Positions 3,561 through 45,539 of a stretch of 64,000 bases of DNA are shown in pieces. Source of the stretch: Pseudovibrio ascidiaceicola (GTDB lineage: Bacteria > Pseudomonadota > Alphaproteobacteria > Rhizobiales > Stappiaceae); assembly GCF_900114245.1 (NCBI RefSeq), contig NZ_FOSK01000010.1:62001-126000 (forward strand), written 5' to 3'. Position 1 is the stretch's first letter; the number at the start of each line of letters is the position of its first letter. The position numbers and the translations under genes were made by a program. Below the pieces are notes generated by a model. It had not been told where the DNA came from. It saw nothing but the letters and a program-made list of their open reading frames with translations, and made no database searches.

Positions 3561-4901
3561 ATGAGCCACATCTTTCCTAGAAATACCCGTGTAACACTAC
3601 CAACAGCTGCTAAAGGCGACGGGTGCTACCTCATTGATTCCACTGGTAAGAGATACCTTGACGCCTGTGGGGGCGCCGCGGTTTCCTGTCTTGGTCACTC
3701 TAATGAACAAGTGATCGACGCGATTAAGGACCAGCTGGATAAGTTTTCGTTCGCTCACACTGGCTTTTTTGGCAGTGAGCCGGCGGAAGAGCTTGCTGAT
3801 AAATTGGTGGCCCAAGCTCCTGAAGGCATTGACCGTGTCTATCTGGTTTCAGGTGGATCGGAGGCAATGGAGTCTGCTGTTAAATTGGTACGGCAGTACT
3901 TTGTTGAAAAGGGAGAAAACCAACGCTCGCATATGATTGCGCGTTGGCAGAGCTATCACGGAAATACGCTGGGAGCGCTTTCTGCTGGTGGCAACAAGTG
4001 GCGCCGTGAAATGTTCGGTCCATTGCTGATCGAAATGTCTCATATCGATCCTTGTTACGCCTATCGCTACAAAGAAGAGAGTGAAACGCTCGAAGAATAC
4101 GGCCAGCGTTCTGCTAATCTTCTTGAAGAAGAGATTTTGCGTGTTGGATCGGAAAAGGTCGCTGCGTTCTTTGCTGAGCCGGTTGTTGGTGCAACCATGG
4201 GCGCGGTTCCGGCTGTTAAAGGCTATCTGAAACGTATCCGCGAGATCTGTGACAAGTACGGCATCCTGCTTGTGTTGGATGAAGTGATGTGTGGCATGGG
4301 TCGCACCGGTCATATCTTCGCGTGTAACGAAGATGAGGTTCGTCCGGACATCGTCGCCGTTGCGAAGGGGATTGGTGCTGGTTATCAGCCACTTGGTGCA
4401 ATGCTCTGTTCTAAAGAGATCTATGACACCATCGCGACGGGTTCTGGCTTCTTCCAGCATGGTCATACCTACATGGGGCATTCGCTGGCTGCTGCCGCTG
4501 GTGCTGCTGTTATGGACCAGTTGACTGCCCCGGGCCGTATGGAGCATGTGCGGGCCATGGGTGAGAAGCTTTCCGCTGCGCTGCATGACGAGTTTGGTCA
4601 GCATCCGCATGTTGGCGATATTCGCGGGCGTGGTCTGTTCCGTGCGCTGGAGCTGGTTAAGGATCGCGACACGAAAGAGCCTTTGGATCCGTCCTTCAAG
4701 CTTCATGCAAAAGTGAAGCAGAATGCCATGAAGGCTGGACTGATGTGTTATCCGATGGGCGGTACGGTTGACGGAAAAATCGGCGACCACATTCTGCTCG
4801 CGCCTCCGTTCATCATTGATGACAGTCATATCGGCGAGATCGTTGAGAAGCTAAGCCTTGCAATGAAAGAGAGTTTCACGCAGGTCGGAGTTTCTGTCTA
4901 A
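3561..4901 (+). CDS. class III PLP-dependent aminotransferase
   Basis: 446 residues of fold-type I, class III (omega-type) aminotransferase. SGGSEAMESAVKLVRQYF near residues 97-114 binds the cofactor phosphate. LVLDEVMCGMGRTG has the ring-stacking/pyridine-binding Asp240, and VAVAKGIGAGYQPLGA carries the Schiff-base Lys269. Such enzymes move amino groups from non-alpha or alpha amines to 2-oxo acids. The start ATG at 3561 has GGAGG seven bases upstream, although the frame is open further 5'. The next gene overlaps its stop by one base (TAATG), so the two are translationally coupled. The partner is a beta-keto acid cleavage enzyme, which suggests a beta- or gamma-amino acid whose keto product is then cleaved. 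Exact substrate unknown. Confidence 0.9.
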   Translation: MSHIFPRNTRVTLPTAAKGDGCYLIDSTGKRYLDACGGAAVSCLGHSNEQVIDAIKDQLDKFSFAHTGFFGSEPAEELADKLVAQAPEGIDRVYLVSGGSEAMESAVKLVRQYFVEKGENQRSHMIARWQSYHGNTLGALSAGGNKWRREMFGPLLIEMSHIDPCYAYRYKEESETLEEYGQRSANLLEEEILRVGSEKVAAFFAEPVVGATMGAVPAVKGYLKRIREICDKYGILLVLDEVMCGMGRTGHIFACNEDEVRPDIVAVAKGIGAGYQPLGAMLCSKEIYDTIATGSGFFQHGHTYMGHSLAAAAGAAVMDQLTAPGRMEHVRAMGEKLSAALHDEFGQHPHVGDIRGRGLFRALELVKDRDTKEPLDPSFKLHAKVKQNAMKAGLMCYPMGGTVDGKIGDHILLAPPFIIDDSHIGEIVEKLSLAMKESFTQVGVSV

Positions 4902-39899: not shown

Positions 39900-40565
39900 A
39901 TGTATTTTTCAAATAAGAAACTGAAGACAATTTCTAGAGCTCTCGTGATTGCAATTGGCGCAATCGGGCTAACTGCGTGCATGAGCCAAATTAATAGAAA
40001 GCCAAGCACCTGGTATACTCAGATGGGCGGTATCGAAAATAAAGGTAATACGCTTTACATCTGCCACGGTTTCGGCTGCGAATATCGCACAGCAGTGACG
40101 TTTAGCGAAAAAGACAAACAGCGGTTGCGCGCGATTTTGAAGCGAGGTCAGCGTAGCCCTGAAGCTGAACGTGCTGCAATTTCCAAAGCAGTACAATGGC
40201 AGGAGAGGCGTGTTGGCCCTGTCGTCGGGTCGTCTAACGATATTGGCGGACTGGATATGGGAAATGGCAATGTCAAAGGGCAGATGGATTGCATTGACGA
40301 GGCGACCAACACGACCAGCCTGTTGATTTATGCGAATTCTCAAGGCTGGCTCAAATACCACCGTGCGGCGCGTCCTGCCTCTCGCGGGTACTTCCTTGAT
40401 GGCAAATATCCGCATGCTTCAGCTGTTGTGGTGGATACGACGACTGAGATTCCTTGGGTGGTGGACAGCTGGCGCCTGAGTAATGGCAAGCCGCCGGATA
40501 TTCTGCATATGACTAAGTGGCTGACCATGACCAGTGCTGATCTGGAAAATCCGTCAGGCGGATGA
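39900..40565 (+). CDS. lipoprotein with transglutaminase-like Cys-His-Asp triad
   Basis: 221 residues. Signal KKLKTISRALVIAIGAIGLTACMS is lipoprotein-like, lipobox LTAC with Cys near residue 23. The mature part has a papain/transglutaminase-like order of candidate catalytic residues: Cys131 in GQMDCIDEATNT, His172 in PHASAVVVDT and Asp189 in WVVDSW. I do not know a named family; this is a motif reading. Upstream in-frame codons run into trmFO antisense and are not credible; ATG 39870 is the nearest alternative. Neither start has a good ribosome site. Confidence 0.7.
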   Translation: MYFSNKKLKTISRALVIAIGAIGLTACMSQINRKPSTWYTQMGGIENKGNTLYICHGFGCEYRTAVTFSEKDKQRLRAILKRGQRSPEAERAAISKAVQWQERRVGPVVGSSNDIGGLDMGNGNVKGQMDCIDEATNTTSLLIYANSQGWLKYHRAARPASRGYFLDGKYPHASAVVVDTTTEIPWVVDSWRLSNGKPPDILHMTKWLTMTSADLENPSGG

Positions 40566-40703
40566 GCTGGTGACGAAGAGCTGCGCGGTGATGCGCATAA
40601 AGCAATGATGATTTGGATAGCGTATCAGCGAGGCTGGTGCGCTTTTCTTTTGTACATTTGCTTTTGAGGGGAAAGGCCTGCCGTTTAGAAAAAATGGGGC
40701 CCT

Positions 40704-40872
40704 AAAACAGCTAACGCCCGTCGATGGGAGGAACGACGGGCGAAGCTAGTAAACAGAGAACTGGGAGGAAATCTCTGTTTAGGAACCATCAAACAGCTTG
40801 GGAGGAGGTGCTGCCTGAGGATTGTATGTTAGGCTGCCGAGGTTTAATTGGGAGGAGTTCCTCAGCGGCCTT
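40704..40872 (-). ncRNA. candidate anti-Shine-Dalgarno small RNA with four stem-loops
   Basis: Read on the minus strand there are four consecutive hairpins, each with CCTCCC in the loop. H1 pairs 40860-40870 with 40832-40842 (9 of 11 pairs). H2 pairs 40810-40818 with 40789-40797 (9 bp with two wobbles). H3 pairs 40772-40780 with 40751-40759 (9 bp perfect). H4 pairs 40734-40742 with 40715-40723 (9 bp perfect). A TATAAA box at 40885-40880 puts the transcript start at the foot of H1. The pattern matches the alpha-r14/NfeR1 and CcsR small RNAs of alphaproteobacteria, whose loops block ribosome sites of target mRNAs. The 3' end is uncertain: T-rich sequence follows H4, and a six-T run lies near 40689. 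Confidence 0.7.
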
Positions 40873-40879
40873 GAGTTGG

Positions 40880-40885
40880 TTTATA
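40880..40885 (-). promoter_or_regulatory. -10 box of the small RNA
   Basis: TATAAA on the minus strand, seven bases before the first hairpin. I see no convincing -35 at 17 bases, so an alternative sigma factor or an activator is possible. Confidence 0.5.
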
Positions 40886-41211
40886 CAAAAGACTTTCCAA
40901 TTGTGCATCACATCATTTCGCATGTCCGATATGCAAAAAATGCATGGCATTATGGCGAATGATGGCGCTACCACTCTTTAAAACGACATAAATGCCAAAA
41001 TTAACGATTGTGCGGTGCGGTAGTTTTGTGATTTGGGGCACAAATCTGCATACCTGAGGGGCTGAGAACGCTATTTTTAGGCAGTTGGCGCTCAAAACTT
41101 AATCATATTTCAATGTGTCGGCCATTTTGGGCAGGTTTTGTGGTGGGGCGACAGCAATTGGAATTTTGTGTTGTTTGCATGGAAAGAGCCTGCTGTGGAG
41201 TGTGGTCTTTG

Positions 41212-41244
41212 CAAAAAAAAATGACCGGGACAGTGCCCGGCCAT
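41212..41244 (-). terminator. terminator of uvrA
   Basis: ATGGCCGGG/CCCGGTCAT stem on the minus strand (41244-41236 with 41229-41221), with one wobble, followed by a run of nine T. Confidence 0.9.
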
Positions 41245-41251
41245 TTGGTTT

Positions 41252-44185
41252 TTACTCTGCTGCATCCAGCTTGTTGGCGCTTCGCCTTTCAAACAATTCC
41301 TTGAGGAAGTGCCCTGTATAGCTCTCCGGTACCTCCGCCACGTCCTGCGGGCGGCCTGTTGCGACGATGGTTCCGCCGCCGTCTCCGCCTTCAGGTCCAA
41401 GGTCAAGGATCCAGTCTGCGGTTCTGATCACTTCCAGATTGTGCTCAATCACGAGAACTGTGTTGCCTTGATCGACCAGCTCATGAAGAACGTCAAGCAA
41501 CTTTGCGACATCGTGGAAATGGAGGCCGGTTGTTGGTTCGTCCAGAATGTAGAGCGTGCGACCGGTTGAGCGTTTGGAAAGCTCTTTTGCTAGCTTCACA
41601 CGTTGTGCTTCGCCGCCCGACAATGTGGTCGCCTGCTGGCCCACCTTGATGTAGCCAAGGCCCACGCGGGCAAGGGTTTCCATTTTATCGCGGATGGATG
41701 GCACGGCAGAGAAGAAGCTTGCTGCTTCTTCAACGGTCATGTCCAGCACATCTGCAATGGATTTTCCCTTGAACTGAACTTCCAATGTCTCGCGATTGTA
41801 GCGCTTGCCCTTACAGACATCACAGGTGACATACACATCGGGCAGGAAGTGCATCTCGATCTTGATGACGCCATCCCCCTGACAGGCTTCACAGCGTCCG
41901 CCTTTCACGTTGAAAGAAAAGCGACCTGGGGCGTAGCCACGTGCTTTTGCTTCCGGCATGCCTGCGAACCATTCACGGATTGGAGTGAAGGCGCCGGTGT
42001 ATGTGGCCGGGTTGGAGCGCGGGGTTCTGCCGATTGGGGACTGATCAATGTCGATGACTTTGTCGAGGCGCTCCAGACCTTCAATGCGGTCATGCGGGGC
42101 AGGGTTGTCGCGTGCGCCATTGAGGCGGCGAGCTGTTGCCTTATAGACGGTGTCGATCAGGAAGGTGGATTTACCACCGCCAGACACACCTGTCACGCAT
42201 GTGAAGGTTCCAAGCGGGATCGTTGCATTGACATCTTTAAGGTTGTTGCCGCGTGCGCCGAACACCTTGATCTGACGGTTCTTGTCGATCTTGCGTGGTT
42301 CATCCGGCTGCGGAATGCTCATTTTGCCGGAGAGGTACTTGCCGGTCAGGGAAGATGGGTTGGCCATCACTTCTTCCGGTGTACCTTGTGCAACCACCTG
42401 ACCGCCATGGATACCTGCGCCTGGACCTACGTCCACCACATAATCTGCGGTCAGGACGGCGTCTTCGTCATGCTCAACTACGATAACTGTATTGCCCAGA
42501 TTACGCAGGTGCTTCAGCGTTTCCAGCAGGCGAGCATTGTCGCGCTGGTGCAAGCCGATGGAAGGTTCGTCCAGAACATAAAGAACGCCGGTGAGGCCAG
42601 AGCCAATCTGGGAGGCGAGGCGGATACGCTGACTTTCGCCGCCAGACAGAGTGCCTGATGAACGGTCCATGGAAAGGTACTCAAGACCAACGTCATTGAG
42701 GAATTTCAGGCGCTCGCGGATTTCCTTGAGGATGCGATAGGCGATTTCGTTTTGCTTGTCGGAGAGCTTCTCATCAATGCTGGAGAACCAGTCATGTGCA
42801 GTCTTGATGGAAAGGGCGGTGATCTCACCGATATGGCGGTCTGCAATCTTGACGCACAGGGCTTCAGGTTTTAGGCGATAGCCGTTACAGGCATCGCAGG
42901 CATGGTCGGACTGGTAGCGTGAAAGCTCGTCGCGCACCATTTGAGAATCTGTTTCACGCCAGCGACGCTCAATGTTGCCGACAACGCCTTCAAATGGCTT
43001 TTCGGTTTTGTAAGAGCGGGTACCATCGTCGTAAACGAACTGTACTTTTGTGTTGCCGGTTCCAAACAGCACTGCATTGCGAAAATCTTCCGGCAGGTCT
43101 TTCCAGGCTTTGGTCATTGGCTGTTTGTAGTGCTTCGCCAACGCTTCCAGTGTCTGGGTATAATAAGGAGAAGTAGAGCCGGTCTTGGACCATGGCAGAA
43201 TCGCGCCACCGCGGAGGGAGAGGGTCTGGTCCGGAACGACAAGTTCGGCTTCAAAAGCAAGCTTGGTGCCGAGGCCATCACAGGTTGGGCAGGCGCCAAA
43301 CGGGTTGTTGAATGAGAACAGGCGTGGCTCGATTTCCGGGATTGTGAAGCCGGAAACCGGGCAGGCGAATTTTTCAGAGAAGACGATCTGTTTGGCTTTG
43401 CCCTTTTCGTCTTGCTGATCTGCAAACTCGATTGTTGCCAGACCTTCTGCCAGCTCTAGTGCTGTTTCCAGAGAATCTGCGAGGCGGCCTGCCATGTCTT
43501 CACGCACGACGACGCGGTCAACGACCACGTCAATATCGTGCTTGAACTTCTTATCCAGAGTAGGTGCATCGGCGATTTCATAATATTCGCCGTCAACTTT
43601 TACGCGTTGGAAGCCCTTCTTCATCAGCTCGGCGAGTTCTTTTCTATATTCCCCTTTGCGGCCACGCACGATGGGGGCCAGCAAGTACAGGCGAGTTCCT
43701 TCTTCCAGCATCAAAATGCGGTCGACCATCTGGGAAACGGTCTGACTTTCAATTGGAAGGCCTGTTGCCGGGGAATATGGGATGCCCACGCGCGCGAACA
43801 GAAGGCGCATATAGTCATAGATTTCGGTGACTGTGCCGACTGTGGAGCGGGGGTTTTTTGATGTGGTTTTCTGCTCAATGGAGATGGCAGGTGACAGGCC
43901 GTCAATCTGATCCACATCCGGTTTCTGCATCATTTCAAGGAACTGGCGGGCGTAAGCGCTTAGGCTTTCAACGTAGCGGCGCTGCCCCTCGGCATAAATG
44001 GTATCGAAGGCAAGCGAAGATTTGCCTGAGCCGGACAGGCCAGTCATAACAATGAGGCTATCGCGTGGAAGATCCAGATCCACATTTTTCAAGTTATGTT
44101 CGCGAGCGCCACGTACAGTAATCTGCTTCGTAAGATCTGCGCGCGCGGGAGTGTTGTGTGTGTCATGTGTTGGCGACTTCGCCAT
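41252..44185 (-). CDS. uvrA: excinuclease ABC subunit A
   Basis: 977 residues. Damage-recognition ATPase of nucleotide excision repair. Two ABC modules: Walker [10 protein letters not shown] near residue 48 and GVSGGGKST near residue 670; signatures TLSGGESQR and TLSGGEAQR; zinc fingers [21 protein letters not shown] and the CEACQGDG ... CDVCKGKRY pair. ATG at 44183-44185 has AAAGGA upstream; a GTG 18 bases earlier is in frame. Its promoter overlaps a perfect SOS box. Divergent from ssb, as in many alphaproteobacteria. Confidence 0.97.
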
Positions 44186-45464: not shown

Positions 45465-45539
45465 TGGTACGCCCAAGGGGAATCGAACCCCTGTTTCCGC
45501 CGTGAAAGGGCGGCGTCCTAACCGCTAGACGATGGGCGC
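45465..45539 (-). tRNA. tRNA-Glu (anticodon TTC)
   Basis: A complete 75-nt cloverleaf on the minus strand, with encoded CCA. Acceptor GCGCCCA pairs with TGGGCGT. Anticodon stem CCGCC/GGCGG encloses loop CTTTCAC with anticodon TTC. The T-arm is AGGGG-TTCGATT-CCCCT. It reads GAA/GAG codons. Confidence 0.96.

Follow-up and report, generated by a model that had tools for sequence, protein, structure and literature searches.

A predicted, conserved four-hairpin anti-Shine-Dalgarno RNA gene upstream of trmFO in Pseudovibrio, most likely working like NfeR1

The 64,000-nucleotide stretch of Pseudovibrio ascidiaceicola DNA that we analyzed (hereafter, the window) carries on its minus strand a predicted, conserved RNA gene of four hairpins, each with an anti-Shine-Dalgarno (aSD) motif, at the genomic place of NfeR1. 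The gene falls outside both the Rfam cut-off and the three-hairpin definition of the alpha-r14 family, and it most likely works like NfeR1. Our best explanation, to which we assign a probability of roughly 85%, is that the array encodes a trans-acting small RNA that is orthologous by position to alpha-r14/NfeR1 and acts in the same manner: activation by a regulator of the LsrB/VtlR type, and masking of ribosome-binding sites in transport mRNAs by aSD loops, here borne on four hairpins. Computation provides the sequence, the predicted fold, the conservation, the covariation of two hairpins, the shared locus, and the promoter box on which this explanation builds. The whole predicted gene spans about 170 nt (40704 to 40873, minus strand), as judged from its fold, its match to the Rfam ar14 model, and its conservation in the genus; its 5′ end (40873) and 3′ end (40704) are both predicted positions.

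When read from 40873 to 40704, the minus strand was predicted to fold into four adjacent hairpins with CCTCCC in every loop, in agreement with an earlier note on this DNA. The minimum free energy of a 201-nt stretch was -67 kcal/mol, compared to a mean of -41.5 kcal/mol for shuffled sequences (z = -6.52), and none of 200 shuffles was as stable. We scored four CCTCCC-loop hairpins in the whole 64-kb window, all of which lay within the array. Clusters of at least two such hairpins never arose in 40 dinucleotide shuffles of the window, where single ones occurred at a mean of 1.8 and a maximum of 5.

Hairpin 1 (40831 to 40871, on the minus strand like the other three) is the extra 5′ unit. It has its foot at 40871, displays the aSD motif CUCCUCCC at 40857-40850, and forms 11 of 12 stem pairs, with one C.A mismatch. 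Hairpin 2 (40784 to 40823) displays CCUCCUCCC, the last letter of which is at 40800, and its stem consists of 9 unbroken pairs (two of them G.U), one mismatch, and then 4 pairs. The stem of hairpin 3 (40750 to 40781; UUCCUCCC at 40770-40763) has 10 unbroken pairs. Hairpin 4 (40704 to 40747; UUCCUCCC at 40733-40726), the presumed terminator, combines 9 unbroken pairs with an outer 4-pair AGCU helix and is followed by a short U run, GUUUU only; it was absent from the output of a terminator scan with a loop limit of 8. Three stems had been described as 9 bp long and free of mismatches, and three are indeed unbroken if G.U pairs are counted, but their lengths are 9, 10, and 9 bp. The core UCCUCCC is common to all four loops, and the gaps between successive hairpins are 7, 2, and 2 nt.

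The array lies approximately 380 nt 3′ of uvrA, which ends at 41252 on the same strand and was identified by the NCBIfam UvrA equivalog. Also on the minus strand, trmFO (NCBIfam TrmFO equivalog) runs from 39745 to 38348. A plus-strand protein gene stands between the array and trmFO; it had no match in Pfam or NCBIfam, and from its appearance only, the protein is lipoprotein-like. A protein-coding reading of the array itself was also considered, given that a plus-strand ORF of 85 amino acids and a minus-strand ORF of 61 amino acids overlap it, neither with a Pfam match. Because close orthologs differ by indels of 1 and 2 nt, which break the frame, we take neither of these ORFs to be a gene. Four small ORFs at 40724-41406 likewise had no Pfam match up to an E value of 1.

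We found the array 3′ of uvrA in 15 of 16 Pseudovibrio genomes, counting that of the window. Four hairpins were scored in 13 of the 15 array-bearing genomes, five in genome G013, and three in G012, where one of the three scored hairpins lies outside the array and inspection by eye reveals four, one of them with a poor stem. A stricter loop filter leaves out one of the four hairpins of G001. The remaining genome, G011, gave neither an ar14 match nor a DNA match, and its stretch before trmFO lacks uvrA and contains a single weak aSD hairpin. A DNA search with the RNA as the query matched 12 of the 16 genus genomes, with the matches in G001 and G013 covering the second half only. In three of the four genomes without a DNA match (G008, G012, and G014), the array occupies the same position but is built on different stems.

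Across an alignment of the 15 orthologs (A1), mean pairwise identity was 93% for the aSD letters, 70% for the stems, and 58% for the spacers, and 22 of the 32 aSD columns were invariant. These values agree with the proposal that the loops, not the stems, are conserved; random changes in the loops with fixed stems had been named as the pattern that would speak against it, and we saw the opposite, with loops conserved while stems drift. Since G001, G008, G012, G013, and G014 have other stems or another number of hairpins, we limited pair counts to an alignment of the ten close orthologs among the 15 (A3, nine distinct rows). In A3, 96.9% of cells were paired, and four pairs had changed on both sides, compared to 0 to 2 when partners were slid by 1 to 3 columns and a mean of 1.2 in shuffles (1/500). 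The covariation score was 0.157, versus 0.119 (standard deviation, 0.009) in shuffles, none of 500 being as high, and further pair types were not above shuffles (21 versus 19.9; 115/500). The changed pairs were distributed unevenly over the array. Hairpin 1, with 98.0% of cells paired, showed changes on both sides of one pair and on one side of six, and hairpin 2, with 95.7% paired, had three pairs changed on both sides. Hairpin 3 showed no both-side change among the ten close relatives, and all 13 pairs of hairpin 4 were unvarying in this set, so neither gives covariation evidence in A3. Hairpin 3 does have differing but pairing stems in G001, G008, G012, and G014, and in far relatives the stem sequences differ while pairing is retained. 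This conservation supports a real RNA.

A covariance-model search with alpha-r14 had been suggested in the earlier note. The Rfam ar14 model (RF02344) matched the array at 40826-40709 with an E value of 8e-8, but its score of 49.8 bits is under the curated cut-off of 58.8 bits, and the match covers hairpins 2 to 4 only, with hairpin 1 outside. At E 0.001, ar14 matched in 46 of the 61 genomes searched, that of the window included; the cut-off was passed by 21 of the 61 and by none of the 16 Pseudovibrio genomes. There were no ar14 matches in 14 control genomes. The ar15 model had no match up to an E value of 5 at 40200-41400. At the gathering threshold, Rfam reported a tRNA alone in the window; that tRNA gene lies at 45468-45539 on the minus strand and scored 65.7 bits.

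We then compared trmFO loci from named genomes, namely, those of the best 80 of 588 relatives, some of which are short at the upstream end. The closest trmFO relatives in named genomes were from Pseudovibrio, at 94% and 79% identity. At least two aSD hairpins stood upstream of trmFO, and on its strand, in 49 of these best 80 loci, where some of the two-hairpin groups may be chance; 31 of the 80 had no array in this position, and none had aSD groups on the strand opposite trmFO. Rfam, run on 12 of the 80, returned 16 ar14 matches above the cut-off in 9 of the 12. Sinorhizobium meliloti 4H41 (locus L163) has two ar14 genes upstream of trmFO, with scores of 108.7 and 107.8 bits. Further above-cut-off matches fell in S. 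glycinis (two) and in records of Rhizobium, Brucella, Nitratireductor, Aminobacter, Labrenzia, and Roseibium, and none in Pseudovibrio (L107 and L108) or Aurantimonas (L151). Because the array shares its place upstream of trmFO with these genes, S. meliloti ar14 included, we regard it as a positional ortholog of alpha-r14.

Given that the array lies downstream of uvrA on the uvrA strand, and does so throughout nearly all of the genus, it could also be viewed as a 3′ end element of uvrA, whose hairpins would end or stabilize the uvrA mRNA and whose CCUCCC loops would be by-products. However, uvrA is equipped with a separate terminator-like hairpin (41246-41219), a conserved TATA-bearing block lies directly 5′ of the array, and uvrA was found within only 9 of the best 80 trmFO loci, compared to the 49 with aSD groups. 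We therefore consider a uvrA element quite improbable and favor an independent small RNA gene of the alpha-r14/NfeR1 kind.

The number of hairpins varied widely among the relatives. In our rule-based count over the best 80 of 588 trmFO loci, three-hairpin units numbered 59, two-hairpin units 16, and four-hairpin units 5, with a single unit each of six and twelve; a further 36 hairpins stood alone, many of which are possibly noise. The four-hairpin units include those of Brucella/Ochrobactrum (L123, L132, L135, and L154) and Pseudovibrio (L107). Within the uvrA-trmFO interval of other genera of the family Stappiaceae, we found, for example, two three-hairpin units in G017, G018, and G026, four three-hairpin units in G020, and two four-hairpin units in G025. 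Since hairpin number varies in this way, we see the four-hairpin array as a variant and not as a new kind; four is one point in a range in which three is commonest. A four-hairpin array departs from the three-hairpin family, but it is not unusual, as 4, 6, or 12 hairpins in a row occur in relatives.

Three of the longer rows deserve individual description. In Aurantimonas L150, twelve aSD hairpins follow one another at 2195-2690, arranged as if in four tandem triplets, and a U run follows only the last. The six aSD hairpins of L136 resemble two triplets. At L105 (G046), eight scored hairpins stand in a row at 2484-2800 before trmFO, one of them without the full motif.

The NfeR1 promoter is described as activated by LsrB at TGCA-N6-GCAT, from -72 to -60 (PMC10746234), and an LsrB consensus, GCAT-N3-TG-N3-T, is placed at -61 to -49 before AbcR1 (PMC8844928). 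Upstream of the array, at 40922 to 40944 on the minus strand (spanning roughly -71 to -49 relative to the presumed start), we found an LsrB-like operator of the form TGCA-N6-GCAT-N3-GG-N3-T (TGCATTTTTTGCATATCGGACAT). Its first motif, TGCA-N6-GCAT, is exact at 40944-40931, or about -71 to -58 if the start is at 40873, and is a putative site of the NfeR1 type; its second, at about -61 to -49 from the same start, has GG in place of TG. Written with K at that position, a composite box (assembled, and its K chosen, after the sequences were seen) occurred in 12 of 15 ortholog promoters at an identical distance. Both motifs are missing from G001 and G014, G008 has the second motif only, and the published GCAT-N3-TG-N3-T is exact in only 4 of the 15 orthologs, the window not among them.

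Genome-wide, the composite box occurred 18 times, versus once for the reversed pattern, and aSD arrays account for two of the 18. By itself, TGCA-N6-GCAT is not a rare motif (7 occurrences in the window versus 5.9 expected), so our evidence is the composite box together with its position and conservation. Another aSD array in the genome, at C27:53 kb, is preceded by the same box, and so is the second of the two S. meliloti ar14 genes at trmFO, which bears the box described for NfeR1; it was not found before an aSD element on C32 or the first S. meliloti ar14 gene.

Between this operator and the array lies a predicted -10 box, TATAAA (40880 to 40885, minus strand), for which the evidence is the spacing of TATA from a CATGC block in the orthologs. 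TATA stands 40 nt after the start of the block in 13 of the 15 orthologs, 41 nt in G014, and, in G012, 62 nt from the first of two CATGC blocks. The rows of a further alignment, A2, were cut by a search for TATA, so TATA invariance in A2 alone is no evidence. The box had been placed exactly at the foot of hairpin 1; in fact, it ends 8 nt before that foot, which suits a start near 40873. We recognized no -35 element, and a sigma-70 scan lists no consensus promoter for the array. A missing -35 element would suit dependence on an activator, but the result is also a plain negative.

Within our best explanation, we infer transcription, LsrB control, target pairing, and silencing as follows. A LysR-type activator of the LsrB/VtlR kind would bind the box at 40944-40922 and bring RNA polymerase to a promoter that lacks a good -35 element. 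The RNA would start near 40873 and end in hairpin 4, and its four separate stems would keep the aSD copies open. Each copy could then pair with Shine-Dalgarno regions, above all in mRNAs for the solute-binding proteins of uptake systems, and this pairing would bar ribosomes and block translation, by analogy with NfeR1. If the loops act alike, the RNA could gain or lose hairpins and still function.

We searched the genome for candidate targets and found 22 perfect GGGAGGAG-N2-9-ATG sites, compared to 11 for the reversed pattern. Twenty of the 22 were fetched (all but those on contigs 43 and 45), and the 10 of these 20 with an ORF of at least 250 amino acids were scanned, the rest being short ORFs. 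The scanned candidates comprised three solute-binding proteins (one of the DctP type and two of SBP_bac types), one nucleoside transporter, two AMP-binding enzymes, one SoxA-type cytochrome, one LuxR regulator, one P450, and one protein without a match; the P450 start is probably internal to its gene, as the profile match begins at position 112. Two tested NfeR1 targets are described as encoding periplasmic transporter components (PMC10746234). Our candidate list, with transport proteins making up 4 of the 10, agrees with those targets, which is suggestive only.

It is also conceivable that the array serves as a decoy that binds something other than mRNAs, such as a protein reading the CCUCCC loops. 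Conservation of the aSD letters but not the stems would fit this idea, and the many copies would suit a sponge. To our knowledge, however, no protein is known to read CCUCCC loops. The loops of NfeR1, moreover, are described as silencing mRNAs, and as doing so redundantly (PMC10746234, PMC8844928). A decoy thus appears very improbable, and we continue to favor a small RNA that would silence mRNAs for transport proteins.

Three further matches to the ar14 model were present in the window's own genome. A second aSD array (L036, G000 C27:49500-57500) lies at approximately 3750-4060 on the plus strand, where three hairpins were scored together with one more upstream, between genes read by eye as aminopeptidase P and PrmA. 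An AbcR-like RNA (L037, G000 C27:186000-194000; 4054-4190, plus strand) adjoins a LysR gene. This RNA, at C27:190 kb, scored 31.6 bits with ar15 (E 9e-5), under the cut-off of 40, and 33.4 bits with ar14 (E 1.2e-4). It displays CUCCUCCC in its first loop and then UUCCCCUC, with GCAT-N3-TG-N3-T upstream, and is perhaps better seen as AbcR than as ar14. AbcR is described as adjoining lsrB or vtlR in S. meliloti, Agrobacterium tumefaciens, and Brucella abortus (PMC8844928), and the place of the LysR gene suggests that it may be the LsrB ortholog; no NCBIfam model shown for that gene reaches its cut-off. The element on C32 (L035, G000 C32:156000-164000; minus strand, approximately 3940-4020 of the reverse complement) has two aSD hairpins, and its second stem is common to ten loci of the genus, its own included.

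Elsewhere in the genus, at L055, L064, and L070 (in G008, G012, and G014, respectively), approximately four to five aSD hairpins occur soon after a small ORF, an arrangement resembling the Rhodobacter CIN1 locus, and beside a gene read by eye as PrmA. By eye, these three small ORFs look DUF1127-like, and a DUF1127 link was accordingly considered and dropped: Pfam found no DUF1127 in any of the three, its two matches to other families were at chance level, and NCBIfam gave none for the one tried.

These observations raise the broader possibility, which we advance tentatively and regard as doubtful, that aSD hairpins are an evolving modular cassette at one old location before trmFO, where hairpins would come and go (2 to 12 in a row) as the loops remain fixed. 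Their number would tune how many mRNAs are held at once, and one LysR regulator would drive the window array, the C27:53 kb array, and AbcR as a multivalent brake on uptake.

In a search by titles and abstracts of a limited collection, we found no paper about such an RNA in Pseudovibrio. Our reading would bring Pseudovibrio and its family into the alpha-r14/NfeR1 system, which is described for rhizobia and related bacteria, and it links an aSD RNA with both a promoter box and a location, the stretch before trmFO. It also makes available natural arrays with differing numbers of like loops, and hence a testable form of the question of why there are several loops if the three S. meliloti loops are redundant, and whether their number determines the strength of silencing.

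Several known RNAs invite comparison with the array. The loops of the Rhodobacter CcsR RNAs also carry aSD sequence. Like the array, CcsR1-4 of the CIN1 locus are several related units in tandem, and they are described as cut from one precursor (PMC10253847). The array could therefore be a precursor of this type, one transcript that RNase E would cut into short aSD RNAs. However, CIN1 lies 3′ of a DUF1127 gene (ccaF1), whereas the gene upstream of the array is uvrA, and Pfam found no DUF1127 among the neighbors or in the four small ORFs. The CcsR RNAs are separate units, whereas the array is one compact predicted RNA whose short gaps leave little room for cutting. We consider such a precursor improbable, and we found no link to CcsR here.

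The sX13 RNA of Xanthomonas (Rfam RF02232) gave a weak alignment over the same hairpins, with 25.9 bits versus a curated cut-off of 50. AbcR1 and AbcR2 (alpha-r15; Rfam RF02345, ar15) are described as having one CUCCUCCC loop and UUCCCCUC between the stems, LsrB/VtlR control, and transporter mRNAs as targets (PMC8844928). They share with the array a CUCCUCCC aSD motif in a hairpin loop, but they combine one aSD loop with UUCCCCUC, whereas the array has four aSD hairpins and no ar15 match.

The alpha-r14 RNAs are described as having three hairpins with an aSD motif in each (PMC10746234, PMC7143759). The Pseudovibrio array departs from this in having four. It also departs in its motifs: alpha-r14 RNAs carry CCUCCUCCC in every loop, whereas the array has CCUCCUCCC in hairpin 2 only, CUCCUCCC in hairpin 1, and UUCCUCCC in hairpins 3 and 4. 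It differs as well in having uvrA as a neighbor, a trait that recurs in other genomes of the window's family. In other respects, the array and alpha-r14/NfeR1 are alike: both have tandem hairpins with unrelated stems, an aSD motif in every loop, a GC-rich last hairpin, a position upstream of trmFO, and an LsrB-type box, here approximately 71 nt before the presumed start. The variable stems and conserved loops of alpha-r14 recur in the array, as the identities across the 15 orthologs show. The proposed kinship of a four-unit aSD RNA with alpha-r14/NfeR1 is thus upheld by the subthreshold ar14 match, the compensatory changes in hairpins 1 and 2, the promoter box, and the genomic place that the array shares with rhizobial ar14 genes, a likeness that is no part of the family descriptions cited here.
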